IMG/VR virus record: IMGVR_UViG_3300007735_000465
Coordinates: 1 to 21,428 of that record
DNA length: 21,428 nucleotides
Source: a virus
Direction: 5' to 3' (one strand)
Shown here piece after piece: positions 2,378 to 21,052 of the stretch. The translations under genes and the position numbers were made by a program. The notes beneath the pieces are model-generated. The model had not been told where the DNA came from and ran no database searches. It saw nothing but the letters and a program-made list of their open reading frames with translations. Position 1 is the first letter of the stretch, and every line of letters starts with the position of its first letter.

Positions 2378-3058
2378 TTATTTTGCCCACATCATATAGT
2401 TAGATTCTACTCTTCTAATATTTTCCGGTGTTGGATCTAGGTCCAGGATGCTTATTGGTTTAAATCCTTGTTTTAAAGCACCATCAATTCCTAATTTCCA
2501 TATTGCTATTGTATATAAACGATAAGCTTTAATTACAGTTTGAACTTTTTCAACATCTTTGTTTCTTCCTTCTTTATCGTATATTGATCTAACCCAAAAT
2601 GAAGGATTGACTATTTTATATTCTTCTAAGACTTTTTTACTAAATTCAATATTATCCATGTCTTTGCTACCAGAATATCCTTTAGATTCCATCCACTTAA
2701 CAAAATTATTCCATTGAGCCATTTGTTGAACAGATATCCCAGATTCATTAACTTTTTGTAATGCTTCATTACCTTCATAGCCAAGATTTGTTACTCTTCC
2801 GCTATTAAGATCTTTTAAAAAGGCTGTTGGGAATTGAAATTGTGATGTAAAGAAACCATTAATACCATCTACGTCAGTACCAGTACGAGTATCACTAACT
2901 GTTATAGCGGGTTTATCTGTTGGAATCTTAGATTGTGCTTTAGCTCCACCAAAAATACTAGAAGCAGCCATAGCTGCTCCCAATGCGATGTCTTTTGCAC
3001 CGACTTCTTCAAGTTGTTCTTGTTGGATTTGTTCTACAAGAGGCATTAGTTTAATCAT
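2378..3058 (-). CDS. Leader-bearing protein of unknown function (226 aa)
   Basis: The protein opens MIKLMPLVEQIQQEQLEE, a helix with possible cleavage positions after L-V-E (residue 9) or L-E-E (residue 18). A hydrophobic Ala/Gly stretch at about residues 24-40 (ALGAAMAASSIFGG) could be a membrane-active segment. The rest is soluble and mixed, with several Trp/Tyr-rich helices and a final ESNYMMWAK. No known domain is recognised. The start overlaps the FAD oxidoreductase stop (ATGA), and the bases just before it are ATATTTATT plus three, shared with other starts nearby. A packaged protein with a membrane-interacting segment is possible but unproven. Confidence 0.7.
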   Translation of the reverse strand: MIKLMPLVEQIQQEQLEEVGAKDIALGAAMAASSIFGGAKAQSKIPTDKPAITVSDTRTGTDVDGINGFFTSQFQFPTAFLKDLNSGRVTNLGYEGNEALQKVNESGISVQQMAQWNNFVKWMESKGYSGSKDMDNIEFSKKVLEEYKIVNPSFWVRSIYDKEGRNKDVEKVQTVIKAYRLYTIAIWKLGIDGALKQGFKPISILDLDPTPENIRRVESNYMMWAK

Positions 3059-4362
3059 GCCAATAAATATTCGGCAACATAAATTCCATGCGCCCCTGAT
3101 ACAGTAATACCACGAGCACTTAAGGCATCACCAACAAAATGTACGTTTGGATATTCAGTTAATGCTAGATTAGTATAATCTACTAATGGTTCTGGTGATA
3201 GATATTTTACTTCAGGAATATACATACCCCAATCATCGCCAAAATTGAATACTTTATTCATACCATCAATAAAATCATTAATATATTTAAAATATCCGCC
3301 GAATATTTCTTCAACTTTAGTTAAACCTATCCAACTAATTTTAGATGATGATACAGTTGTACCCTCAGATGTTAGTCCTGGTTCACGTGTCATATTAGGT
3401 GAGAAATATAATCCTGTATTATTAATCTGTAGTTTTTGTACTACATCTCTAGACCATTTAAATGGATCTTCAATACCTTTAATTTCCATCAATATACCAA
3501 AATTGGTCATATCGTTTCGGAATTGTTCACCCTTTTTCGCATGGCCGTTGTACGTGATATCGCCATAAGTTTCCTCCACGGCCACGTAAGCGGCATTGTT
3601 ATTAGTACAAAAGCTACGTAGAGAAACATTGTCAAACTTCTGATATAATTTGAAGTCATATGATATGTCTATTAATTTTTGAAAATATTTTTGTGGTGCT
3701 TCAAATCGAACACCTATTTGAACTGACTTAGGTTCAGTTGGTAGTTTATAATCGTCGGATAGTTTTTGTGCAAAGTCAATACCTGATTTACCTACTGCAA
3801 ATATAAGTTCATCATATATTATTTTGTCAGTAAAACCTTTATTTATTCTACACCATAAAGCGTTATATTTAAAGAATATATCAGTTACTTCAGCATTCCA
3901 TAAAAACTTAACACCCTTATCTAACAAATATTGGTACCATGCTTTAGCAATCTCGTGTAAGTAGTTACTACCAATGTGCCATACAGGAAACAAACGTAAT
4001 CCAAAATATGGTTTAATAAAGTCTGGTTCAGCTACTGGATCAGAACAGAATATTTCTTCTGGTTTAGGGTGAAAGCGTCTAAAGTTACTAATAACTTGAT
4101 CCATTAATTCCATTGCTTTTTCTTCACCACAATACTTAGCTAATTGACCACCAATTGCTGTATGGTATGTGAGTTTGCCATCGCTCCACCCTCCACTTCC
4201 TAACATGCCAGTCATAACTTCCTCTGGTTTACGATTATGAGGATCGTTTCCCTTATCGATTATTGTTATCAACTCGCCTGGGTATCCGTTATCGACAAGT
4301 TTAGTAGCAAAGTTAATACCTGCTACTCCCGCTCCAATTACTACAATTTTTTGTTGTTTCAT
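3055..4362 (-). CDS. FAD/NAD(P)-dependent oxidoreductase
   Basis: This full-length flavoprotein of 435 residues begins MKQQKIVVIGAGVAGINFAT. G10-A-G12-V-A-G15 is the Rossmann dinucleotide-binding GxGxxG. A central block (about residues 185-195, DELIFAVGKSG) resembles the second FAD/NAD motif, and the C-terminal NVHFVGDALSARGITVSGAHG is the typical final FAD-binding motif with an Asp contacting ribityl. The overall plan resembles uncharacterised FAD-dependent dehydrogenases of the COG2509 type. The substrate is unknown. Such a gene is unusual among phage structural genes and is probably an auxiliary metabolic gene (inference). A homing endonuclease gene lies immediately upstream, one base from its ATG. 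The next gene starts inside its stop codon. Confidence 0.85.
   Translation of the reverse strand: MKQQKIVVIGAGVAGINFATKLVDNGYPGELITIIDKGNDPHNRKPEEVMTGMLGSGGWSDGKLTYHTAIGGQLAKYCGEEKAMELMDQVISNFRRFHPKPEEIFCSDPVAEPDFIKPYFGLRLFPVWHIGSNYLHEIAKAWYQYLLDKGVKFLWNAEVTDIFFKYNALWCRINKGFTDKIIYDELIFAVGKSGIDFAQKLSDDYKLPTEPKSVQIGVRFEAPQKYFQKLIDISYDFKLYQKFDNVSLRSFCTNNNAAYVAVEETYGDITYNGHAKKGEQFRNDMTNFGILMEIKGIEDPFKWSRDVVQKLQINNTGLYFSPNMTREPGLTSEGTTVSSSKISWIGLTKVEEIFGGYFKYINDFIDGMNKVFNFGDDWGMYIPEVKYLSPEPLVDYTNLALTEYPNVHFVGDALSARGITVSGAHGIYVAEYLLA
3059..3070 (-). promoter_or_regulatory. ATATTTATT pre-start motif
   Basis: On the minus strand ATATTTATT (3070-3062) is followed by three bases and then the ATG at 3058. 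The same nine bases at the same spacing precede the starts at 5008 and 5395. Here it lies inside the end of the oxidoreductase gene (encoding EYLL), so coincidence is possible. Confidence 0.35.
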
Positions 4363-5155: not shown

Positions 5156-5395
5156 TTATTCAAATTGTTTTAAAAAGTCCATTAAATTTTTTTTATCTTC
5201 ATCTTTTAATATACCTTGTACACCTTTATATGAATAAACAATTTTATTTAGTTTCTTATCTAAATAGAATCGTAAATCGCTTGGAGCATCTCCTCCAATA
5301 CTAACTCCCCTTCCCCACTCATAATCAAATGTAGATTCATTAATCACACCTGCTAATTCTTGCATTCTTTTAATTTCGTTGGATGACTGTTTCAT
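5156..5395 (-). CDS. Small leader-bearing protein (79 aa)
   Basis: Chosen start 5395 gives MKQSSNEIKRMQELAGVINE followed by STF. The segment ends I18-N19-E20|S21, an ideal gp21-type prohead protease site. RMQ-(x)-LAG-(I/V)-I is an N-terminal pattern I recall from many marine phage proteins. The remaining 59 residues form a small beta-rich domain (FYLDKKLNKIVYSYKGVQGI) with a short C-terminal helix (DEDKKNLMDFLKQF). An upstream in-frame start at 5425 would add ten residues before the leader, but 5395 is preferred because it has the ATATTTATT motif three bases upstream. The function of the mature domain is unknown. Confidence 0.7.
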   Translation of the reverse strand: MKQSSNEIKRMQELAGVINESTFDYEWGRGVSIGGDAPSDLRFYLDKKLNKIVYSYKGVQGILKDEDKKNLMDFLKQFE

Positions 5396-5407
5396 GATAA
5401 TAAATAT
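5396..5407 (-). promoter_or_regulatory. ATATTTATT pre-start motif
   Basis: ATATTTATT (5407-5399) is followed by ATC and the ATG at 5395, the same spacing as at 5008 and 3058. It was used to choose the start of the 79-residue gene. Confidence 0.4.
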
Positions 5408-5421
5408 GGGATAATTTTTAT

Positions 5422-5646
5422 TCACTTATAATTTTCTATTTCTTCTTTCATTTGTTCCCAGTATTTTTGTTTAGCTGTTCTACCATGTTCATTATTCCAT
5501 TCTTTTATTATCTTACTCACCGCTATTAAAGCACATTGTTTAGCAATCTCTCTATTACCTGTTATTTCCCAATATTCTTCTACTAATTTAGTTGCAGCGT
5601 TTATGCCCGCTACACCGGCGCCTACGATTACGATTTTCTTTTGCAT
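5422..5646 (-). CDS. Chimeric small ORF: FAD-oxidoreductase N-terminal stub fused to an unrelated tail
   Basis: With the start at 5646 the product is 74 residues. Residues 1-22 (MQKKIVIVGAGVAGINAATK...) match the first 23 residues of the FAD oxidoreductase at 4362 almost exactly in protein but clearly not in DNA, so this is not a fresh local copy. From about residue 24 the sequence changes to EYWEITGNREIAKQCALIAV and ends YWEQMKEEIENYK, a helical tail resembling small uncharacterised phage proteins. A GxGxxG loop alone cannot form a flavin domain, so the stub is probably a translation-start graft left by recombination. A longer frame to 5694 would read into the structured element and is disfavoured. 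Whether a protein is made is uncertain. Confidence 0.6.
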   Translation of the reverse strand: MQKKIVIVGAGVAGINAATKLVEEYWEITGNREIAKQCALIAVSKIIKEWNNEHGRTAKQKYWEQMKEEIENYK

Positions 5647-5658
5647 ATAATTAAATAT
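5647..5658 (-). promoter_or_regulatory. Variant pre-start motif (ATATTTAAT)
   Basis: ATATTTAAT (5658-5650) lies three bases before the ATG at 5646. It is one mismatch from the ATATTTATT found at the same spacing before 5008 and 5395. Confidence 0.3.
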
Positions 5659-5678
5659 AAAATTTTTATTTTGACCTA

Positions 5679-5757
5679 CAAAGAGAGAGCGCAATCTTTC
5701 GATTGCGCCACAGCTGCATAATATTGTTTATTAGTCGACAGGCTATGAATCTGTCTA
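5679..5757 (-). promoter_or_regulatory. Structured element, copy 2
   Basis: This copy matches the element at 5049-5128. The first helix pairs 5689-5696 with 5701-5708 (GCGCAATC/GATTGCGC); read on the minus strand its loop is GAAA, a GNRA tetraloop. The second pairs 5737-5741 with 5751-5755 (GACAG/CTGTC) around the conserved CTATGAAT. Compared with copy 1 at least four base pairs change on both sides, which argues for a selected RNA fold. The minus-strand beginning (5757-5755) coincides with the TAG stop of the 387-residue gene. The start of the FAD stub follows the hairpin by 42 bases. Its association with FAD-gene starts suggests a mobile or inherited 5' leader. Confidence 0.6.
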
Positions 5758-8755: not shown

Positions 8756-11416
8756 TTATTGATTTTTGGTTTCGGCTATGTGTTTTCTTAACATTTCTTT
8801 TACTTCATCCAAATGTTGTGGATTATTAGCAATATATTCACGTATCATATAGTTACGTACTTCAGCTAATCCACGACGTTGTAATACTGATAATAGTTCA
8901 GATGGTGAATTTAATGGTACCATTACATTACCGTTCTCATTATCTAGTAACACGTAATTTCTATTACCTGGTTGGATATTAATAGATGCTATTATGCGTT
9001 GATTTGCTAATCTAATGAAATATATTTTACTTTCATTTACTCCTATTACTCGACCTACTCTACCAGCATTACCTAATTGATTATTACGACGTGCTGCGCC
9101 TCTATCACCATTTGGATTAATACGAACAGCTGTTGTTGAATTAAGACGTCTATAATCATTTATTGGGAGACGGGAAAATGCTATTTCTAAACCGGTTTCA
9201 TCCATTACTTCAGCTACATTTATATCACCACCTCCTGCTGCAAGAGCTGCTGCACGTGGTTGTCCACCACCTGCTGGCCTACCTCTTCTAGTTGCACCTG
9301 CTACTGGAGCTTGTGCTCCTGGAGCTGTAGGTGTAGCTTCATCTGGTGTAGCGCCTGTTAATTGACGAGCCATAGCAGAAGGTATATTTGCTTTAACCAA
9401 TTTACCTGAATCTGATAATTTAAGAGATTCACGTGGATTAGCTTTATTTACAACATAATATATACCATTTGCTCCTATAGCTATTGCATATCTATCTGTT
9501 GGAGATAATGGTGGTTGAGCTCTAAACCATGCTTTTTTATTATCAAGACTAGTGTATGATGATCTAAACCATTGTGCTAGTCTACTTCCATCATAAACTA
9601 TATTTTCATTTCTTAAATAGGTAAAATAAGCTCTCCATGCTCCTTCATCCATTTGATTATTAGAATCTCTTTCTCTCCAATCATTTCCTCTCCATCCATA
9701 ATCTAATCCAGTATAAAAATTATATAATTCATTAGGAATACCACTTCCCATTTGTCTTGAAAAGAAAGTACGACTACTTTCTCCATCAGGTATAAGAAGT
9801 ACTTGTTGTCCCCCTAAATTACCAGAAGTTATTACTCTTTGGTTATATGGAGTAGATTTTAAAATAGATATAAATGCATCTTTATCAACTGTTGGTGGTA
9901 TATTAGAATAAGAATCAGCTGAGTTTTTAACTATGTTAACAACACCTTGTTGGAATGATGTATTGTCTTTTTCATCTTTTAATACTGCTTGTACTTCTTC
10001 ATCATTAAATGGTACTTTAGTTATCTTACCATCTTGAATTTTATATGATGAGAATGAATTAGCATCAACTAATATTTCACCATCTTCTACTTTTTTAACT
10101 ATAATAGCTGAATTTTCTTCTGATTTAGCTGTTTCAATAACTTTATCAATAAATGCTTTATCTACAATACCGTCAGTAGCTAATTTAAGTAAACTATTAA
10201 ATGGTAATTTATCTAATTCAGGATAATCAAGTAAGTATTTTGATGTACGTTGATTTAATTTAATATTTGGGTAGTCATCTTCTGCTGTATATAAACCTAT
10301 AGATATTTCATCTCCAAATTTTAATCTAACAATAGTATTACCATCTTTAGTAACATATAGTCTTTCATTAGATGGTATATTCCACTTATTTAATATTACT
10401 AATAATTTTTTAACATCAAATGGGAAAGTATCTAATGTAAGATATTTTAAATCAATTGGTTGCTGTATATTAGCTGTAATTGATTTTCTATCTTGATTAC
10501 TAAATTTATCTAGATTAGATAATAGGTAAGCATTGTCAATGATACCAGGAGTAATAGCAATAAATTCTGCTATTTGTGGATATTGAGGTAAATATTTTTC
10601 AACAAATTCTTTATTAGTAATATCACTAAATAAAGTTTTGTCTTTTCTAACAACCAAATATTGTTTTTTAACATTAAATGGCAATTTAATCCATTCTCTA
10701 ACACTAATAGTATCTTTTTTATATTTTTGAGCTACTTTTTCTTGATTAGATAATGGAATATAACGTAATATACCTCTAATATTTGGTATATCATTTAACC
10801 AAGGTACTTCAGATATTAATTTACTGAAAGACATTGGAGATGATTCGTATGGACTATTCTGTCTATTAGTATAGACATACTTTTTATTTTCATCATCTAC
10901 ATCCCTAACTTGTATAGCAACAAAACTTAATTTATCACTATCTGATAAGTTAGAGTTTTTAGCTAAATAAAATGTTGGATAACCTTTAGCAGCATCATAG
11001 CGATAATTACCAAATGATCCTCTAGTAATACACCATTTTTCACCTCTACCATATGTAATACAGTTATTTTCTTTAGAACCATTCCATACTGTAATGCCAC
11101 CATCTTGATATACTACATCGGGTGTTTGATCTTCTTCATCATCTGGGGCTTCAGCACCTACTGATGATGTAACTAGTTTTATTAGTTTAGATAAAGAGTA
11201 TTTACGTAAATCTTTTTCTTGTATTTTAGGAGAATTTTTGATAGCATCAAAACGTTGAATGTATGTTTTTAATGTATCATCACTGATATTGATATTTAAA
11301 TCATCAGCTTCTTCTCTAAATTGAGCCATTAAACGCTTTAATTCACCCTCAGAATATTCATTCAAAGGGAAAATATTATGTACTACGTGTAATATGAATT
11401 TATCTATTGCTCTCAT
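8756..11416 (-). CDS. Giant leader-bearing protein with KWCI domain (886 aa)
   Basis: This is the largest gene here. Residues 1-20 (MRAIDKFILHVVHNIFPLNE) form an amphipathic leader ending L-N-E. A domain near residues 100-175 has an N-N-C-I-T-Y-G-x-G-E-K-W-C-I core (KWCI at 127-130), then YRYDAAKGYPTFYLA. A similar W-C-x...FY pattern recurs in many large-phage proteins of unknown role. Residues 200-680 hold repetitive hydrophobic/polar segments with several roughly 60-residue units resembling each other. A Pro/Ala/Gly/Arg linker spans about 687-731, and a final beta domain plus a helical tail (HLDEVKEMLRKHI) follow. A packaged virion protein is inferred. No catalytic centre is seen. Confidence 0.75.
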   Translation of the reverse strand: MRAIDKFILHVVHNIFPLNEYSEGELKRLMAQFREEADDLNINISDDTLKTYIQRFDAIKNSPKIQEKDLRKYSLSKLIKLVTSSVGAEAPDDEEDQTPDVVYQDGGITVWNGSKENNCITYGRGEKWCITRGSFGNYRYDAAKGYPTFYLAKNSNLSDSDKLSFVAIQVRDVDDENKKYVYTNRQNSPYESSPMSFSKLISEVPWLNDIPNIRGILRYIPLSNQEKVAQKYKKDTISVREWIKLPFNVKKQYLVVRKDKTLFSDITNKEFVEKYLPQYPQIAEFIAITPGIIDNAYLLSNLDKFSNQDRKSITANIQQPIDLKYLTLDTFPFDVKKLLVILNKWNIPSNERLYVTKDGNTIVRLKFGDEISIGLYTAEDDYPNIKLNQRTSKYLLDYPELDKLPFNSLLKLATDGIVDKAFIDKVIETAKSEENSAIIVKKVEDGEILVDANSFSSYKIQDGKITKVPFNDEEVQAVLKDEKDNTSFQQGVVNIVKNSADSYSNIPPTVDKDAFISILKSTPYNQRVITSGNLGGQQVLLIPDGESSRTFFSRQMGSGIPNELYNFYTGLDYGWRGNDWRERDSNNQMDEGAWRAYFTYLRNENIVYDGSRLAQWFRSSYTSLDNKKAWFRAQPPLSPTDRYAIAIGANGIYYVVNKANPRESLKLSDSGKLVKANIPSAMARQLTGATPDEATPTAPGAQAPVAGATRRGRPAGGGQPRAAALAAGGGDINVAEVMDETGLEIAFSRLPINDYRRLNSTTAVRINPNGDRGAARRNNQLGNAGRVGRVIGVNESKIYFIRLANQRIIASINIQPGNRNYVLLDNENGNVMVPLNSPSELLSVLQRRGLAEVRNYMIREYIANNPQHLDEVKEMLRKHIAETKNQ

Positions 11417-12066
11417 TGTATTGGAGGTAAATTTAGTGCTTTTAATCTAGTAGACCATACATTTAAAATGTCTTGTCTATCTTTTTTATTTAATTTTACT
11501 TTATTAAAGTAATCGTTAATTACATCTTTAAATGGTGTACGTGTTTTTTTAGCTTTTAAATACATACCTTGTAACATAGCATCCACCTCTTTTTCTAATT
11601 TAAAGTAATCAGCTTTTGGTGCTAACTTCATGTTAATTAGATTACGCAATATTTCATCGTCACTCATTTCTTTAGAGGGAATAACATTTATACCTTGCTG
11701 TGTAAAATGTTCTAATTCATGTCTAATAACATCAGTTAAATCAAAATATATATCTTCCCATTTTTGTGGTAAATCTCTTGGATCAACCTGAAATCTGATT
11801 TCAAGGTATGGAGGGTCTGCTAATTGATCAACTCCACCATCTACAATATATCTTTGTGATTTTGTTGCTTTAACTCTTAATACTGCATTTAAATCAAATT
11901 CAAATGAACGACCTTTAGCATCAGTTAATTCATAATCATTTTCAAATTCTAAATCACCTTGCTCGTCCATATATTGATCTTTCCATTCTCTCATGATGTC
12001 AGTGACTATGTTTCTAGTCATAGAATCATAAGCACCTTCTTTCAATATATCGATTAATTTAATCAT
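11413..12066 (-). CDS. Leader-bearing HExxH zinc metalloprotease-like protein (217 aa)
   Basis: The first ten residues MIKLIDILKE, followed by GA, are a model capsid-targeting leader with L-K-E|G. Residues 113-124 (VIRHELEHFTQQ) contain H116-E117-x-x-H120, the zinc and general-base motif of gluzincin/metzincin peptidases. A downstream E160 in KLEKEVDAMLQG is a plausible third ligand. The N-terminal half is beta-rich. The likely activity is peptide hydrolysis, with the target unknown. It could act in head maturation or be injected to cut a host protein (inference). Start and stop both overlap neighbours (ATGA), placing it in one tightly coupled unit. Confidence 0.78.
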   Translation of the reverse strand: MIKLIDILKEGAYDSMTRNIVTDIMREWKDQYMDEQGDLEFENDYELTDAKGRSFEFDLNAVLRVKATKSQRYIVDGGVDQLADPPYLEIRFQVDPRDLPQKWEDIYFDLTDVIRHELEHFTQQGINVIPSKEMSDDEILRNLINMKLAPKADYFKLEKEVDAMLQGMYLKAKKTRTPFKDVINDYFNKVKLNKKDRQDILNVWSTRLKALNLPPIQ

Positions 12067-12956
12067 TTAGTTTTACCCCATTTTTTACCTTTACCTGGTT
12101 GTTTACATGCTGACACTGTTGGGCGACATGAAGGGTATTTTGCGCGTTTTTCACCTTTTTGGCGGCCACAAGGTTTACATTTAGTTTTACCATCTACTTC
12201 GCGACATGTATTACAATCTACCCAACCACCTGTTTTACCAGGAGCGCCTTTACGAGCAAACCATGTACGTAATGTTTCTTTTTGTTTTTCAGTTAATATT
12301 TCGTTTAACCAAGGAGCATTTAAACCAATATATACATTTGGTTGAATAAAACCTTCAGGATACATTTTAAATGTTTGAGTAGTTCTATGCCAACCTTCTC
12401 CTAATTCGTATTTACCATCTTTAGTTTTAAATAAAATAATTGGTTCTTTGGATATACCTTGACTTTTTAATAAATTTTGTTGTGTTTTATGTCTTTCAAC
12501 ATCCTTACCTACATCTTGTCTAATTTCACCTCCAATTCTTGATTTTAATTCTTTTTGAGTTTTATCACTAAAAATATCCATTGTTATAGGAAAATTTATC
12601 TTAGTCTCCCATTTTAAATCTTTAAGTTGGGTATCAATCCAATCCTGGATGCCTTCAGCTGTATTAATATTATCATCTTTTTTAATCATCTTATAAATCC
12701 AATCCTTTATAACATAATCAGGAAAATTTGGAAGTTGTTGTTTTAAATAACCAAGAAGACCTTGTCTTAATTCATTTAATTCAAACAGATTTTCTTCTTC
12801 CTTTAATCCTTTCCATATTTTACCTTTACGGCAACGTACAATAGCACCTGATTTATAGGCAGATGGTTTGTCGTATTTGCGATCAGCAATACGCTTACAA
12901 CGGTCTGCTTTTTTCTCAAGCATCATTTCAAATAATATATCTTGTAAACGTATCAT
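12063..12956 (-). CDS. Multidomain leader protein: basic cassette, ParB-like core, DUF5872-like Cys tail (297 aa)
   Basis: Leader MIRLQDILFE, with L-F-E at residues 8-10. A basic cassette follows at about residues 18-52 (DRCKRIADRKYDKPSAYKSG, then RCRKGKIWKG), which I recall as a repeated module in marine phage proteins. L60-N61-E62 is a second possible cleavage site. The core contains ILFKTKDGKYELGEGWHRT (174-192), resembling the G-G-x-H-R box of ParB/Srx-like nucleotide-binding folds. Residues 244-297 are a Cys-rich basic tail (GGWVDCNTCREVDGK, CKPCGRQKGEKRAKYP, CRPTVSACKQPGKG), matching what I know as DUF5872. Nucleic-acid binding and packaging are inferred. Confidence 0.75.
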   Translation of the reverse strand: MIRLQDILFEMMLEKKADRCKRIADRKYDKPSAYKSGAIVRCRKGKIWKGLKEEENLFELNELRQGLLGYLKQQLPNFPDYVIKDWIYKMIKKDDNINTAEGIQDWIDTQLKDLKWETKINFPITMDIFSDKTQKELKSRIGGEIRQDVGKDVERHKTQQNLLKSQGISKEPIILFKTKDGKYELGEGWHRTTQTFKMYPEGFIQPNVYIGLNAPWLNEILTEKQKETLRTWFARKGAPGKTGGWVDCNTCREVDGKTKCKPCGRQKGEKRAKYPSCRPTVSACKQPGKGKKWGKTK

Positions 12957-14411: not shown

Positions 14412-15017
14412 TTAGTGTTTCATTAATTCACTACCTAAAGTAGTAGCTTCTACTAATAAATGATTTATATCTTCTTGAGATAGTGTTGTTTTTCTATGGG
14501 TAAATTCTATACCTAAAGTTCCAACGAATTTACCTTCAATAGTTTTTACAGCAAATAAATAAGCACTTTTACAACCATTTTCCTCAGCTATATGGTTTAA
14601 ACCATAACTATTTACTGTTTTATCTTTAAAATCAGGAATGATGATTGTATCTTCTTCTAGTAAGTGATTGATAGACTTACTGAATAAACTAACGGGGATA
14701 TTTTGGAAACTAGATTGGATTGAAGCAGTACCTTGTGATACTGTTTCATAGAACATACTAAATTTCTGTATTGATTTACCTGTAGGGTAAAATGTACCAC
14801 CATTGTGGAATTGCATTACCCAAACACGGTCTGCCTTTGTATGTTCTTTAATTGCTTCTACTTTATTATTTACTAAAGCATTCTTTTGAAGCGATTCTTT
14901 TAGTATATCTTTTTTACTTTTTTTCTCTAGTTGTTCTTTAACAATATGGACCGCTATAGGGCCTATAACTGCTGTAAGTAAAGAAGAAACTAATGCTACA
15001 GTTAAATTCAAATCCAT
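14412..15017 (-). CDS. Membrane-anchored GAF-like protein (201 aa)
   Basis: Residues 4-26 (NLTVALVSSLLTAVIGPIAV) form one membrane helix, followed by a Lys-rich juxtamembrane stretch (about 27-45). The rest looks like a GAF sensor or ligand-binding domain: ADRVWVMQFHNGGTFYPTGK near residues 63-82, a variable middle, and KSAYLFAVKTIEGKFVGTLG then IEFTHRKTTLSQEDINHLLV near the C-terminus. No catalytic output domain is attached, so it may sense a small molecule or block a host signalling protein at the inner membrane (inference). There is no leader or cleavage motif. An ATATTTATA box lies 26 bases before the start. Confidence 0.72.
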   Translation of the reverse strand: MDLNLTVALVSSLLTAVIGPIAVHIVKEQLEKKSKKDILKESLQKNALVNNKVEAIKEHTKADRVWVMQFHNGGTFYPTGKSIQKFSMFYETVSQGTASIQSSFQNIPVSLFSKSINHLLEEDTIIIPDFKDKTVNSYGLNHIAEENGCKSAYLFAVKTIEGKFVGTLGIEFTHRKTTLSQEDINHLLVEATTLGSELMKH

Positions 15018-15050: not shown

Positions 15051-15632
15051 TTAGTCTTTTATAGCATCCTTGAGTTTTTGTATGTATTCCTGTATATCTT
15101 TTACAAATTGATTGTCTAGACTTTTACCTTTCCATTCTTCAATATCACCCGCTTCTGTAACGTATTGTTCGCCAGATTGAGCCATGAGTAGTTCTAGTAA
15201 TACATTTTCCATTTCTTTAATGTGATATATAACACCCTGTCTAATCATGTTTTGTTCATATTCTTTATATTCGCCTTTAACTTTTAGTTTAGTTTCATAA
15301 TCAAATACACAATCTGAGCATTTCTGGTGTATTTTAAACATATACTTATCAATATGTCCTTTATTCATTGGTTTATTGCAGTTAGGACATGTGATAGGTG
15401 TGAATATTTGTTTCTTAATAGCATCAAAACGTGTTACAGTTTGTTTGATTCCGTTTTTTATAGTCCATTTTTTACCGCGCTCTTCCCAAACGTCACCCTC
15501 CTTATATTCAACGTAGTCTGCTTTGTAACCAACCTGTACTCCGGTTTTATCGCCCGCTTTCTTGCTAATAATATTACGCATACGTTGTACGTCGCGTGTT
15601 TTAAATTCCTTTTTAAGTAAATTGTCGCTCAT
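15051..15632 (-). CDS. Zinc-ribbon conserved phage protein (193 aa)
   Basis: Residues 1-75 are basic and helical/beta (RDVQRMRNIISKKAGDKTGV, GDVWEERGKKWTIKNGIKQT). The middle holds a CPNC pair near residues 82-85 and a CSDC pair near 104-107, a two-knuckle zinc ribbon with DKYMFKIHQKCSDC between. The C-terminal half is helical (YKEYEQNMIRQGVIYHIKEM). I recall this family from T4-like phages of marine bacteria with no assigned role. A function in transcription or virion assembly would be guesswork. The start overlaps the stop of the HAD gene upstream (TAATG). Confidence 0.72.
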   Translation of the reverse strand: MSDNLLKKEFKTRDVQRMRNIISKKAGDKTGVQVGYKADYVEYKEGDVWEERGKKWTIKNGIKQTVTRFDAIKKQIFTPITCPNCNKPMNKGHIDKYMFKIHQKCSDCVFDYETKLKVKGEYKEYEQNMIRQGVIYHIKEMENVLLELLMAQSGEQYVTEAGDIEEWKGKSLDNQFVKDIQEYIQKLKDAIKD

Positions 15633-16099
15633 TATAACCCTAATTTTTTAAGTTGTGAAATTGTATTTGAAGCTGAGGTGTGGTGAATACCTTTACCTCC
15701 TTTAGCTTCCCATTCATCTATTGTTTCTTTTAAATCATCAATTAATATTCTATCAGGTTCAGCAAACATTTGCTTCATACCTCTAGAGGCAAAAAATAAT
15801 TTTCTATATTGATTATTAATATGCATTTTACACCATGCTTCTTTACCTACACGAGATGAAGGATCTTGAGAAGGTGCTGATAGAATAGCTGGTTTGTAAC
15901 GTTTAATATAACGCCATAATTCAGGACCATCAGGCATCCAGGGTAAATTGGCCCAAAATGAAGCACCAGCATCACTTATTGGTTGCCAAAAGGCAGCATC
16001 ACCTTTAACATATTGTTTTGTGTGAACACCTGTTAATTCATAATAACCTCTTTCAAAATCGACCAACACCCCATCCATATCAGAGTAAATTGTATACAT
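15632..16099 (-). CDS. HAD-family phosphatase, 5'(3')-deoxyribonucleotidase-like
   Basis: This 155-residue protein begins MYTIYSDMDGVLVDFERGYY. D7-x-D9-G-V-L-V-D is HAD motif I, with nucleophile Asp7 and acid/base Asp9. S74 in AILSAPS is motif II. K86 in RVGKEAW is a candidate motif III lysine, and I-L-I-D121-D122 is motif IV. The small helical cap between motifs I and II fits 5'(3')-nucleotidase or polynucleotide-phosphatase-type HAD enzymes, which dephosphorylate dNMPs or 5' ends. No leader is present, so the enzyme probably acts in the cytoplasm in nucleotide metabolism or RNA/DNA end processing. Confidence 0.85.
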   Translation of the reverse strand: MYTIYSDMDGVLVDFERGYYELTGVHTKQYVKGDAAFWQPISDAGASFWANLPWMPDGPELWRYIKRYKPAILSAPSQDPSSRVGKEAWCKMHINNQYRKLFFASRGMKQMFAEPDRILIDDLKETIDEWEAKGGKGIHHTSASNTISQLKKLGL

Positions 16100-16114: not shown

Positions 16115-16648
16115 TTATTTAGACTCTATTCTTTTTAATATTACAAATTTACCCGTATCTCCAGATTTAGTTGTAAAGTCTAATCCAACCTCTTTTCTTG
16201 AATAACCAGGAATTTTATTTGTTTTTGATAAATTATTATAAATATTCCAATATCCGCTTTTATCTAAACTAGATAATCCTATATATTTTGGTTTTTCTGT
16301 TTCAACAAAGTCTAATATAATTTTATACATTGTTGATAATATTTTTATATAATTTTCTTTAGCATTTCCTGTTGGTTCATTTGATGATTTAGTATTATGT
16401 TTTTCGTCAAATTGTATATTATAAAAAGACCCATTATCTCTATAATAATTAGGTAAAGGTTGGATTGAATAAAGATATTCAATATCTCCTACTTTAAATT
16501 CACCATCCAATAAATTACCATTAATTTCAACCGCATTTTCAGGATTAAGACTTATTTCATTTATTTTTAATTCATATAATTGAGATGATAACCTATTACT
16601 TAATGTAATAGGAGTATCAAATTTTAATATATCAATTAATTTTATCAT
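16115..16648 (-). CDS. Unknown protein with MIKLIDIL leader but no matching cleavage Glu (177 aa)
   Basis: The N-terminus MIKLIDILKFDTPI is the shared leader, except that Phe replaces the Glu found at position 10 in the 217-residue protein. A later I-N-E-I at about residue 30 could be a substitute. The body is soluble. Toward the C-terminus YIGLSSLDKSGYWNIYNNLS, then IPGYSRKEVG, resembles the end of small phage acetyltransferase-like (GNAT) proteins, but the acetyl-CoA loop (R/Q-x-x-G-x-G/A) is not evident, so this is a weak suggestion. The start overlaps the stop of the three-domain gene upstream (TAATG). Confidence 0.65.
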   Translation of the reverse strand: MIKLIDILKFDTPITLSNRLSSQLYELKINEISLNPENAVEINGNLLDGEFKVGDIEYLYSIQPLPNYYRDNGSFYNIQFDEKHNTKSSNEPTGNAKENYIKILSTMYKIILDFVETEKPKYIGLSSLDKSGYWNIYNNLSKTNKIPGYSRKEVGLDFTTKSGDTGKFVILKRIESK

Positions 16649-18102
16649 TATTGATATATTTCTTCGTTTTGTTCGCCGAATTTTCTTAATAATACACCTG
16701 CTTGAGCATTTGCTTCATTTTCAATTTCACTACCTGTTTCACCACTAGTTGGATCTAAACGTCCATCCTCAGCTTGCTTACGATGTACTAATTCATGAGC
16801 TAATGTACGTAATAAATCGGCCATGTTACGATTTTTAACATATACCCAAATTTTATCATCGTTTTGATTGAATGTACCAAATGTACGACGAGATTTTGCC
16901 TTATCATTATTATTTGATAAAGTAATTCCTGAGGGTGGTTTTTGTATTCCTAATTCTTTAATAGCAAAACCAACAAATTTCTTTAATAATTTTTTATCAT
17001 TATTATCTTCAATACCTTCATTTAAAGAACTAGGTAGTGTTTTAGTTTGTAGATTAAGTGTTCCTACTAATGCTGTTGGTATTACACCTAATGATCTATA
17101 AATAGATAATATAACTTCACCACCTACTAAATAATATTTACCTTGTTGATATTGTAATATAAGTGGTAATGGTATATCTTCTTTTTTCTTAATAGCGTCA
17201 ATATATGGTTTAGGATTAATACCTGTCTTTAGAGCATGTGAAATAGCATCATCTAATGATTTCATATTGTAAGACTTAGAATTTTCTAGCTCACTCCACA
17301 TGTCATCATTTAATACCATTTCATTTCCACCATTAAAAGCATATTCCATATCTTCAATAGGAATATTAAATACAGCAGCTGCTTTCTCTATTTTAGCACG
17401 ATTTTGTGTTATATAATCTTGATAAGCATCATCATCAAAATTAAGTGGTGGTGATTCTTGTAGTGGTTGTTCTTCACCTTTTGGTGGTGTTGTTTCGGCT
17501 GGTGGTGTTTCTGCTGGTGTTTCAGCTGGAGGAGTTTCAGCAGGTGGAGTTTCCTCTGGTTTCTCTTCAGGTTTAGTGTTTAATGCTTGTAAAAATTGAT
17601 CTACTGACACTCCATCAGGAAGATATTTTGCAATTTCTTCTTCATTCTTTTGAGCTAAAGCCATACGTAAATTAGTTGCGCTAACACCTTCAATAGCACC
17701 AGCATCAAATACTTTTACGTTTGGGTATTTTTCAATACTTTTATAGCGATCCATTTCACCTTTACCAAACGCTACAATAAAATTAGTATCAGGATTATTT
17801 TTAACTACGCCATATACTTCTTTAACGGGACTATCGTCTGCTGCTACGCGTACTTCAACTGAGCCATTAAATTTAGGCTTATATAAATTCCACACAGCAA
17901 TGCTTTCATCAGCACTAACACCTTCACGCATTTTAGGTGATACAAGTACTACTACTTGATCTGCTGTTTTTAGTAATTTTTCAACTACATCAAAATGACC
18001 TTTATGAGGTGGTTTAAAAGCACCTGGGAATAGAGCAATTGTTTGTTCTGGTTGGTCACCTGCTTCTAGTATTATATTGGCTAAGTATTCTCCTAAATTC
18101 AT
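16648..18102 (-). CDS. Three-domain protein: nucleotidyltransferase, ParB-like, HExxH peptidase (484 aa)
   Basis: Leader MNLGEYLANIILE|AGDQ (I-L-E at 11-13). Residues 21-150 form a cytidylyltransferase-like domain: FPGAFKPPHKGHFD holds the H33-x-G-H36 nucleotide-binding motif and S141-ATNLR146 the C-terminal ISxTxxR-type motif, as in NMN, pantetheine-phosphate or glycerol-3-P transferases. A Pro/Glu/Thr linker (about 177-213) and L214-Q-E216|S217 lead to a middle domain. Its KYYLVGGEVILSIYRSLG (322-339) resembles ParB/Srx-like folds. L360-N-E362|G363 precedes a zinc-peptidase domain with H436-E-L-V-H440 and a downstream ENEAN Glu. The (L/I)-x-E sites at the joints suggest cutting into separate proteins by the prohead protease (inference). 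Confidence 0.8.
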   Translation of the reverse strand: MNLGEYLANIILEAGDQPEQTIALFPGAFKPPHKGHFDVVEKLLKTADQVVVLVSPKMREGVSADESIAVWNLYKPKFNGSVEVRVAADDSPVKEVYGVVKNNPDTNFIVAFGKGEMDRYKSIEKYPNVKVFDAGAIEGVSATNLRMALAQKNEEEIAKYLPDGVSVDQFLQALNTKPEEKPEETPPAETPPAETPAETPPAETTPPKGEEQPLQESPPLNFDDDAYQDYITQNRAKIEKAAAVFNIPIEDMEYAFNGGNEMVLNDDMWSELENSKSYNMKSLDDAISHALKTGINPKPYIDAIKKKEDIPLPLILQYQQGKYYLVGGEVILSIYRSLGVIPTALVGTLNLQTKTLPSSLNEGIEDNNDKKLLKKFVGFAIKELGIQKPPSGITLSNNNDKAKSRRTFGTFNQNDDKIWVYVKNRNMADLLRTLAHELVHRKQAEDGRLDPTSGETGSEIENEANAQAGVLLRKFGEQNEEIYQ

Positions 18103-18854
18103 TTTAAAAAGTCGTTTATTTTAGTTTTTGCATCTTCAATATCAGTAAAATCAGGGACCATTTTAAGTTGATTTGATATTTCCTGATTCATAGCATCTAT
18201 CTCTTGTCTTTTTTTAAGTAATTCCTCTGGTGAATATTGCTTACCACTACCTTTTACAGTTTGAAAAAATGTAGCTTTAGCATATGCCGGATCGTACTCT
18301 AATCTAGCTTCAGGATCATTATCAATCAAAATAAAATCATCACCAAAAATTCCTCTATACAATTCAACATTTTTATTTACATCTCTCCATGTACGTAATA
18401 CAATAGCTGGAGGTAATGCTCTATCTCTAGTAGCATTACGTTCTAATGATGTATAAGGTGAAACCCAAATCATTAACATTAATGTATCGTATCCTAATGA
18501 TTCTAAATCTGCTTTTTTCTTAAGTAATGGTTTACTAGCAGCACCAGTACCATCTATTACTATATTATTTTTAGCAGCAGATAGTTGTGCATATTTTTCT
18601 TTAGTAGCTTTTTGAGCTTGACCCATCATTTTAGCTGCTTGTGATAATTGATCTTGACTAAAGTCAGCAATTTTAGTACCTAATCCAGCAGTACGTAATA
18701 ATTCTTCATAGGTATCATCTACATTAATTACTGTTAAATTAGATGGAAGTAGTTGTTTAGTTACGAATGTTTTACCAGAGCCAGCAGGACCAGCTAAAAA
18801 TATAGCTTTTGATCGAGCTGATGCTTCTAATAATAGATCTAATAGTTTAATCAT
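18099..18854 (-). CDS. Leader-bearing P-loop kinase, zeta-toxin/PNKP-like (251 aa)
   Basis: Leader MIKLLDLLLE|AS (L8-L9-E10|A11) is followed at once by a P-loop: A-G22-P-A-G-S-G-K28-T29. The second Asp motif is NVDDTYEE (44-51), and NIVIDGTGAAS (97-107) fits Walker B or the substrate-binding strand of zeta-toxin or polynucleotide kinase-like enzymes. LERNATRDRALPP (137-149) supplies Arg residues for a lid. Zeta-type kinases phosphorylate UDP-GlcNAc and PNK-type kinases phosphorylate nucleic-acid 5' ends; the sequence does not decide. A leader on a kinase suggests packaging and delivery into the host (inference). ATATTTATT lies eight bases before its start. Confidence 0.8.
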   Translation of the reverse strand: MIKLLDLLLEASARSKAIFLAGPAGSGKTFVTKQLLPSNLTVINVDDTYEELLRTAGLGTKIADFSQDQLSQAAKMMGQAQKATKEKYAQLSAAKNNIVIDGTGAASKPLLKKKADLESLGYDTLMLMIWVSPYTSLERNATRDRALPPAIVLRTWRDVNKNVELYRGIFGDDFILIDNDPEARLEYDPAYAKATFFQTVKGSGKQYSPEELLKKRQEIDAMNQEISNQLKMVPDFTDIEDAKTKINDFLK

Positions 18855-20611: not shown

Positions 20612-21052
20612 TTATTCTGCCGTAACAAAGTCTTTGCGATAGAATTTACCTAATATATTATCGTTGTAACTATCAGTGAATAGTACTGAGTGTTGTATTT
20701 GGTAGTGAATTTCGTAGTATGTAAGTTGCTTTTTAGTAGAGCAAAATTTTAGTATTTCTTTTTCAAATTTGTCTTCACCTAATAATTTAACATCAGCTAA
20801 TAATTCCTTAGATGAACCCCAGTAATTACGCCAACCGCTGTCGACTTGTTCTACTTTAGTAGTTGATTTGCGACCTGGGCCGGTTTGTTCAGCTAGTTCT
20901 TTTTTAGTAAGTTTTTTCTTCTTATTGTGAAAGAATGCTTTTTTACCTATGTAAAATTTGTTGGATTCTAAATTAGTGATTTTATATATAAAACCATAAT
21001 CATTTGTAGTAAAGTTGTCCCTTAAAGGAACATATTCATATAACCAATTCAT
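20612..21052 (-). CDS. GIY-YIG endonuclease, endonuclease II-like
   Basis: The product is 146 residues. Y19-G-F-I-Y-K-I-T-N (19-27) and K-F-Y-I-G-K-K (32-38) form the GIY-YIG core. A Lys-rich insert (about 38-60), WRNYWGSSKELLADVKLLG (74-92) and a helical C-terminus (LTYYEIHYQIQHSVLF) follow. This arrangement resembles a conserved phage family and T4 endonuclease II (DenA, also GIY-YIG, similar length), which degrades host DNA, but could also be a free-standing homing nuclease without NUMOD repeats. It lies directly ahead of the primase gene, in a DNA-metabolism group. Confidence 0.78.
   Translation of the reverse strand: MNWLYEYVPLRDNFTTNDYGFIYKITNLESNKFYIGKKAFFHNKKKKLTKKELAEQTGPGRKSTTKVEQVDSGWRNYWGSSKELLADVKLLGEDKFEKEILKFCSTKKQLTYYEIHYQIQHSVLFTDSYNDNILGKFYRKDFVTAE

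Follow-up and report, generated by a model that had tools for sequence, protein, structure and literature searches.

In phage T4, the protease gp21 cleaves after the glutamate of an L/I-X-E motif. Internal proteins are directed to the head by targeting leaders of 10–19 residues, and gp21 cuts gp22, gp67 and one more core protein into several fragments each (PMC9026906). The polyvalent proteins, as presented in the accessible part of Iyer et al. (2017; PMC5512222), are multidomain phage proteins with ParB-like, zinc-peptidase and nucleotidyltransferase domains, which are predicted to enter with the DNA and have been likened to viral polyproteins. An NMNAT of cyanophage S-SCSM1 was detected in virions, with similar proteins in two other estuarine cyanophages (PMC9602691), and a cytidyltransferase is discussed likewise for cyanophage S-CREM2 (PMC10665884); the authors caution that the virion NMNAT/cytidyltransferase may be a co-purified contaminant (PMC9602691; PMC10665884). 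Within the open-licence literature, neither a phage polyprotein cut by the prohead protease nor a multidomain phage protein with capsid-protease joints was found described. The single mention of a 'polyprotein' in the accessible part of PMC3012670 is an animal-virus antigen, and no relevant virion study of Flavobacterium phage immuto was found, as judged by title and the start of the abstract.

The open reading frame (ORF) described here is likely to encode a head-targeted cargo polyprotein of a T4-related phage, which would be cut in trans by the prohead protease. Such a protein combines the known T4-type targeted head cargo with the polyvalent multidomain proteins, in a form for which the open-licence literature yielded no description.

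The locus and its modules

The window, i.e. the whole stretch of DNA analysed, is the entire virus record of 21,428 bases. The polyprotein ORF occupies the minus strand from 18,102 to 16,648 and encodes 484 amino acids, with its ATG at 18,102 and its stop at 16,648–16,650; it overlaps the upstream gene by four bases, and the plus strand of 16,648–18,102 is full of stops. Its parts are as follows (arrows mark candidate cuts).

16,648–18,102, minus strand: polyprotein ORF, 484 aa, with leader, nucleotidyltransferase, ParB-like module and zinc peptidase
18,064–18,102, minus strand: leader, residues 1–13 (helix 3–13), ending ILE↓A; candidate capsid-targeting sequence
17,578–18,045, minus strand: NMNAT/PPAT-type nucleotidyltransferase (NT) domain, residues 20–175
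17,995–18,006, minus strand: HxGH motif (HKGH), residues 33–36
17,455–17,577, minus strand: Pro/Glu-rich linker, residues 176–216, ending LQE↓S; pLDDT <50 over 179–224
17,017–17,454, minus strand: ParB/sulfiredoxin-like module, residues 217–362, ending LNE↓G; active-site Arg replaced (GGEVIL)
16,651–17,016, minus strand: zinc peptidase module, residues 363–484
16,783–16,797, minus strand: HELVH zinc-binding motif, residues 436–440

The observation of joined domains with protease-type sites, as made in the initial annotation, is confirmed: ILE13↓A14, LQE216↓S217 and LNE362↓G363 are all present in the translation, as are the intact HxGH (33–36) and HELVH (436–440) motifs. An AlphaFold2 model of the 484-aa protein, built with 25 homologues (mean pLDDT 79.8, pTM 0.40), has three folded domains. 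The only stretches with pLDDT below 50 are residues 179–224 and 352–363, where the second and third sites sit, and the modelled leader helix (residues 3–13) stops at the first site.

The three domain names first proposed fared differently. That of the NT domain held, with a match to Pfam CTP_transf_like (PF01467) above cut-off (4.4e-5) and a model that matches NMNAT and PPAT structures with Z about 14 over 142–152 residues (best 14.2, with rmsd of 2.8–3.4 Å over 148–152 residues); both the HxGH motif and the nucleotidyltransferase fold of the NMNAT/PPAT type are present. A phmmer search of PDB sequences gave only weak PPAT matches (E at least 0.006). The VIA-align list for the whole model was limited to residues 18–175, and hence it tests the NT domain alone and the absence of other families from it is uninformative. 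The zinc peptidase also stood. Its HMM matches were weak (PHROG 0.0011), Pfam and PHROGs giving no clear name, and tblastn gave clear matches to stand-alone cyanophage proteins (3e-13 and 4e-12); the module with its HELVH is related to those of cyanophages B23 and S-SRM01. For the ParB-like module the name is carried by a weak fold match: Pfam and PHROGs gave no family HMM match, and the module modelled alone (pLDDT 92) found sulfiredoxin and ParB/PadC at the top of the Foldseek list with E of 0.05–0.08 and probability of 0.96–0.98, none reaching E ≤0.001. The active-site Arg described for the ParB/sulfiredoxin superfamily (Iyer et al., PMC5512222) is replaced in the window module and kept in three of the 15 aligned modules (L034, L036 and L039). 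Because this residue is missing, the middle module is probably not a ParB-type enzyme.

Protease-type motifs at the domain joints

Strict [LI]xE↓[AGS] sites occur in the 484-aa protein only at ILE13↓A, LQE216↓S and LNE362↓G. With any P1' allowed there are five [LI]xE triplets (5, 13, 216, 362 and 383), of which E5 lies within the leader and E383 within a peptidase helix of the structure model. The strict-site count alone is unremarkable, because shuffled window proteins carry 1.24 such sites on average and 12.5% of the shuffles have three or more; at least three inside 80 joint residues were obtained in 0.1% of shuffles, these zones having been picked after viewing the protein. The leader, MNLGEYLANIILE↓A, is 13 residues long and has the form of a T4 propeptide (~7–19 residues ending in L/I-X-E), and cutting at the three sites would give predicted fragments of 22.1, 16.4 and 13.8 kDa.

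An alignment of 25 homologues has Glu at P1 in 24/24, 20/20 and 24/25 of the rows having the column at the first, second and third site, respectively, and Leu or Ile at P3 in 24/24, 16/20 (the others Val or Met) and 24/25. The P2 position is variable at both internal sites, and at the third site the entropy is 3.2 bits at P4 and 2.8 at P2 versus 1.0 at P3 and 0.2 at P1. At the second joint, P1' is Arg, Lys, Tyr, Leu, Ile or Met in nine of 20 rows. The conserved pattern matches the published T4 gp21 motif L/I-X-E. Homologues lacking conserved (L/I)-x-E at the joints had been named at the outset as the main refutation of the idea, which survived.

An alignment-free test was added because MAFFT may favour lining up Glu. 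Within 16-residue boundary windows, [LI]xE was found in 30/35 cases before the ParB-like module (9.4 when shuffled), 63/81 before the peptidase (18.9), 20/31 after the peptidase where more follows (7.6) and 60/60 at the leader (29.9), with 4.8–7.8 per 100 aa at boundaries versus 0.53 in domain cores. Among 54 dereplicated polyproteins, 71 of 101 internal joints have [LI]xE against 23.6 ± 4.0 expected by shuffling. Both the boundary and the joint counts are indicative, since the proteins are related by descent and the profiles of the modules start close to the sites of the window protein; the excess holds at the strictest dereplication (36 proteins). Thirteen of 14 decoy motifs were no more than 1.1 standard deviations above expectation and mostly below it, the sole enriched decoy being [VM]xE, moderately (17 vs 7.7). 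The motif is absent from 14–35% of internal joints, depending on the joint (18/81 pre-peptidase, 11/31 post-peptidase). Strict sites number 0.06 per 100 aa within domain cores against 1.2–2.4 in short linkers, and long NT–peptidase linkers have no clear strict-site enrichment after dereplication.

The C-terminus of the peptidase was considered separately, with the expectation that a terminal peptidase ends in IYQ and an extended one in IYE. In the 97 ORFs with a complete 3' end that matched the pattern, out of 133 peptidase proteins, this rule holds only in part: terminal peptidases have 20 Q and 20 E of 43, those extended by at least 30 residues have 30 E and one Q of 39, and the 15 with a shorter extension have mostly E. 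The IYE before added modules was set aside as cleavage evidence, because plain C-termini also have IYE.

Exchange of modules and the genes around them

Scans of viral contigs yielded four loci with the whole protein, 19 with the ParB-like module, and the best 80 of 470 NT loci and best 80 of 539 peptidase loci; the bacterial genome contigs gave only three distant peptidase matches. The 195 sequences gave 195 ORFs with at least one module, and 148 after dereplication. Their module content is peptidase in 51, NT–peptidase in 44 (plus three with a split NT match), NT–ParB–peptidase in 26 (plus two with a split ParB), NT in 14, ParB–peptidase in five (plus two split) and NT–ParB in one. The triple combination, for which the initial annotation knew no described counterpart, is hence not unique, the window protein being one of 28 such proteins among the 148, and fusions of ParB with zinc peptidase are published (PMC5512222).

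The relatives are mosaics with lengths of up to 1149 aa or more. Added modules include a Pol-beta nucleotidyltransferase (Pfam DNA_pol_B_palm), a nucleotidase (NT5C, below cut-off) and several unnamed ones. For example, L003 (817 aa) and L004 (837 aa), with 81% identity to the window protein over the aligned part, carry one further module at the third site, exactly between LGE↓G and LNE↓G. The ParB module is absent from L033, L037, L135 and L145, and in L122 the same leader is placed directly before it.

The domains, and the extra ones, are found elsewhere as separate genes or in other combinations, many bearing their own leaders, as a homologue check suggested at the outset had asked. An [LI]xE leader is retained in 11 of the 14 NT-only ORFs. 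By the stricter count, 22 of 46 peptidase-only ORFs have an upstream [LI]xE, five do not, and in 19 the domain starts too early for a leader to fit. Four of the 22 are long proteins with other upstream parts, their peptidase starting after residue 400. A raw count of 27/46 with [LI]xE in the first 28 residues was discarded as inflated by in-domain triplets. The NT and peptidase stand as adjacent separate genes, with a leaderless peptidase, on eight contigs (L097, L129, L158, L159, L161, L164, L169 and L178).

All 17 internal NT modules have an [LI]xE upstream within 45 residues, and 12 of them have two such sites before the fold, e.g. LNE↓TNLGRYLASLILE↓A, i.e. leaders retained inside fusions; cuts at these paired sites could free an internal leader at both ends. 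Fusions with a complete internal leader show that joints can come from simple gene fusion, and the leader site is the most strongly conserved of the three (24/24), as would be expected if the leader alone were removed, the modules stayed joined in one multidomain protein through packaging and ejection, and the L/I-x-E motifs inside the chain were relics of gene fusions. Relics should decay, yet P1 and P3 are conserved while P2, P4 and the remaining linker diverge, and decoy motifs are not retained at the joints; we therefore regard removal of the leader alone as unlikely.

A gp21-type S77 protease (PF03420) is encoded in 21 of the 27 relatives' records searched (5/7 and 16/20), and was not detected in the other six, four of which are 102–167 kb; the window itself is a 21 kb fragment. 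In the propeptide-like start of the capsid proteins of G001, G004 and immuto there are several L-E triplets, with LVTE↓A or IVSE↓A conserved as a candidate cut. In the relative G001, 23 of 216 called genes have a strict leader (8.3 ± 2.8 when shuffled), with 16 of the 40 genes at 33–69 kb, the polyprotein and head region, versus seven of 176 elsewhere, the interval having been picked after inspection. The strict leader is present in eight of 29 window genes. The neighbours of the polyprotein ORF include the following.

18,099–18,854, minus strand: upstream P-loop kinase-like gene with its own leader, MIKLLDLLLE↓A
16,115–16,648, minus strand: downstream 177-aa gene starting MIKLIDILK; module homologue in three related ORFs (L073, L083 and L078)
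15,632–16,099, minus strand: leaderless NT5C-type nucleotidase gene; homologous module in 19 related ORFs
11,413–12,066, minus strand: second zinc-peptidase gene, leader MIKLIDILKE↓G; module in two (L083 and Flavobacterium phage immuto)
8,756–11,416, minus strand: 886-aa gene, N-terminal part homologous to the module at the third joint in L003, L004, L022 and L028

Four of these genes (nucleotidase, 177-aa, second zinc peptidase and 886-aa) appear elsewhere as modules, and the N-terminal part of the 886-aa gene matches eight related ORFs.

Self-cutting by the embedded zinc peptidase, which has been put forward for DdrB of phage P1 and other polyvalent proteins, would agree with the intact HELVH and with the MPTase–ParB combination described among such proteins (PMC5512222). 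The same motif, however, ends the leaders of neighbouring genes without a peptidase domain, lies in the N-terminal part of the relatives' capsid proteins and is kept in the leader of most NT-only ORFs, which makes self-cutting improbable. A cytoplasmic multidomain enzyme that is never packaged and, for example, rebuilds NAD during infection is about as improbable. The NMNAT/PPAT-like fold would suit it, and NAD-rebuilding pathways are reported in phages; against it stand the gp21 motif at the end of the leader, the grouping of leader-bearing genes near the head genes of G001 and the NMNAT-like proteins described from virions of T4-like cyanophages (PMC9602691; PMC10665884).

Several other features of these genomes were recorded. 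The window gene at 12,063–12,956 (minus strand) has the leader MIRLQDILFE, a weak DUF5872 match and a second, possibly ParB-like stretch with GWHR and an inner LNE. A second leader type, KRMQxLAG followed by ITE↓S, ITE↓A or INE↓S, is seen at 5,156–5,425 (minus strand) of the window and in the G001 genes at 54916 and 58919, both near the major capsid gene. The 90-aa ORF at 5,422–5,694 (minus strand) has an N-terminus, KIVIVGAGVAGIN, nearly that of the oxidoreductase at 3,055–4,362 (Rossmann) and then diverges; it looks like a truncated duplicate or recombination product. A SegE-type GIY-YIG endonuclease (PF19835, 3.6e-27) is encoded at 20,612–21,052 (minus strand). The gene at 14,412–15,017 (minus strand) encodes a small protein whose N-terminus is hydrophobic and which has a GAF-like domain (E 8e-4, below cut-off). 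In S-SCSM1 (L204), the region 26358–31836 has the NMNAT in the company of genes with a virion-protein annotation, and some of these also begin with a short [LI]xE leader.

Proposed processing and comparison with described systems

For the head-targeted cargo polyprotein, we infer targeting, cleavage, packaging and ejection, as well as the substrates of each module. The 13-residue amphipathic leader would act like a T4 capsid-targeting sequence and bring the whole chain into the prohead core. A gp21-type (S77) prohead protease would cut after Glu at L/I-x-E, removing the leader, and cuts at the internal sites would set free three proteins (NT, ParB-like and zinc peptidase), which would be ejected together with the DNA. 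A single packaging tag could in this way bring several separate proteins into the virus, since the joints carry the motif that the head-assembly protease of the phage itself is expected to cut. The initial interpretation, that the prohead protease may release three enzymes within the head, is partly supported, and the finding is more general than that reader could see.

The chances are even that a polyprotein cargo system of this kind is widespread among the T4-related phages of aquatic bacteria, with exchangeable cassettes, one leader and the capsid protease acting in trans. The cassettes would be strung behind, or around, a single capsid-targeting leader, which may also function from within the chain and then be excised by a cut at either end. 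One gene would then supply early-acting proteins in a fixed ratio, among them possibly an NAD-making enzyme to forestall defences that deplete NAD. If true, tailed phages would use polyproteins much as many eukaryotic viruses do, and their processing enzyme would be the capsid protease. Head cargo could then be read from phage sequence by its L/I-x-E joints, and the long-open question of which proteins T4-like phages inject could be put to a direct test. A single tag would, on this reading, offer a simple means of loading several proteins into T4-type capsids.

The window polyprotein resembles T4 IPI–III and Alt in its short propeptide at the N-terminus, which ends in L/I-X-E, in the S77 protease of most relatives and in its predicted place among head cargo. 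The T4 internal proteins, as far as the source describes them, lose terminal propeptides, whereas in the window polyprotein such sites also lie between folded domains. Its pieces would be these domains, in contrast to the scaffold fragments of gp22 and gp67, which are mostly removed from the head. Gp68 is a further T4 core protein of this kind. One chain with several gp21-type cuts, predicted here, is shared with gp22 and gp67 (PMC9026906). Similarly, cyanophage S-SCSM1 ORF91 (NMNAT/cytidyltransferase) is a nucleotidyltransferase with an L-x-E leader, of 10 residues ending in LKE↓A; unlike the window polyprotein, its sequence showed no ParB-like or peptidase module. The polyvalent proteins share with the window polyprotein at least two disparate domains together with a zincin-like peptidase, there being three modules and an intact HELVH here, and the polyvalent nucleotidyltransferases named in the accessible part of the source are of the Pol-beta type, as is the upstream module of L022 (PMC5512222). 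In the polyvalent proteins the embedded peptidase is proposed as the processor (PMC5512222), whereas the joints of the window polyprotein carry the motif of the capsid protease.
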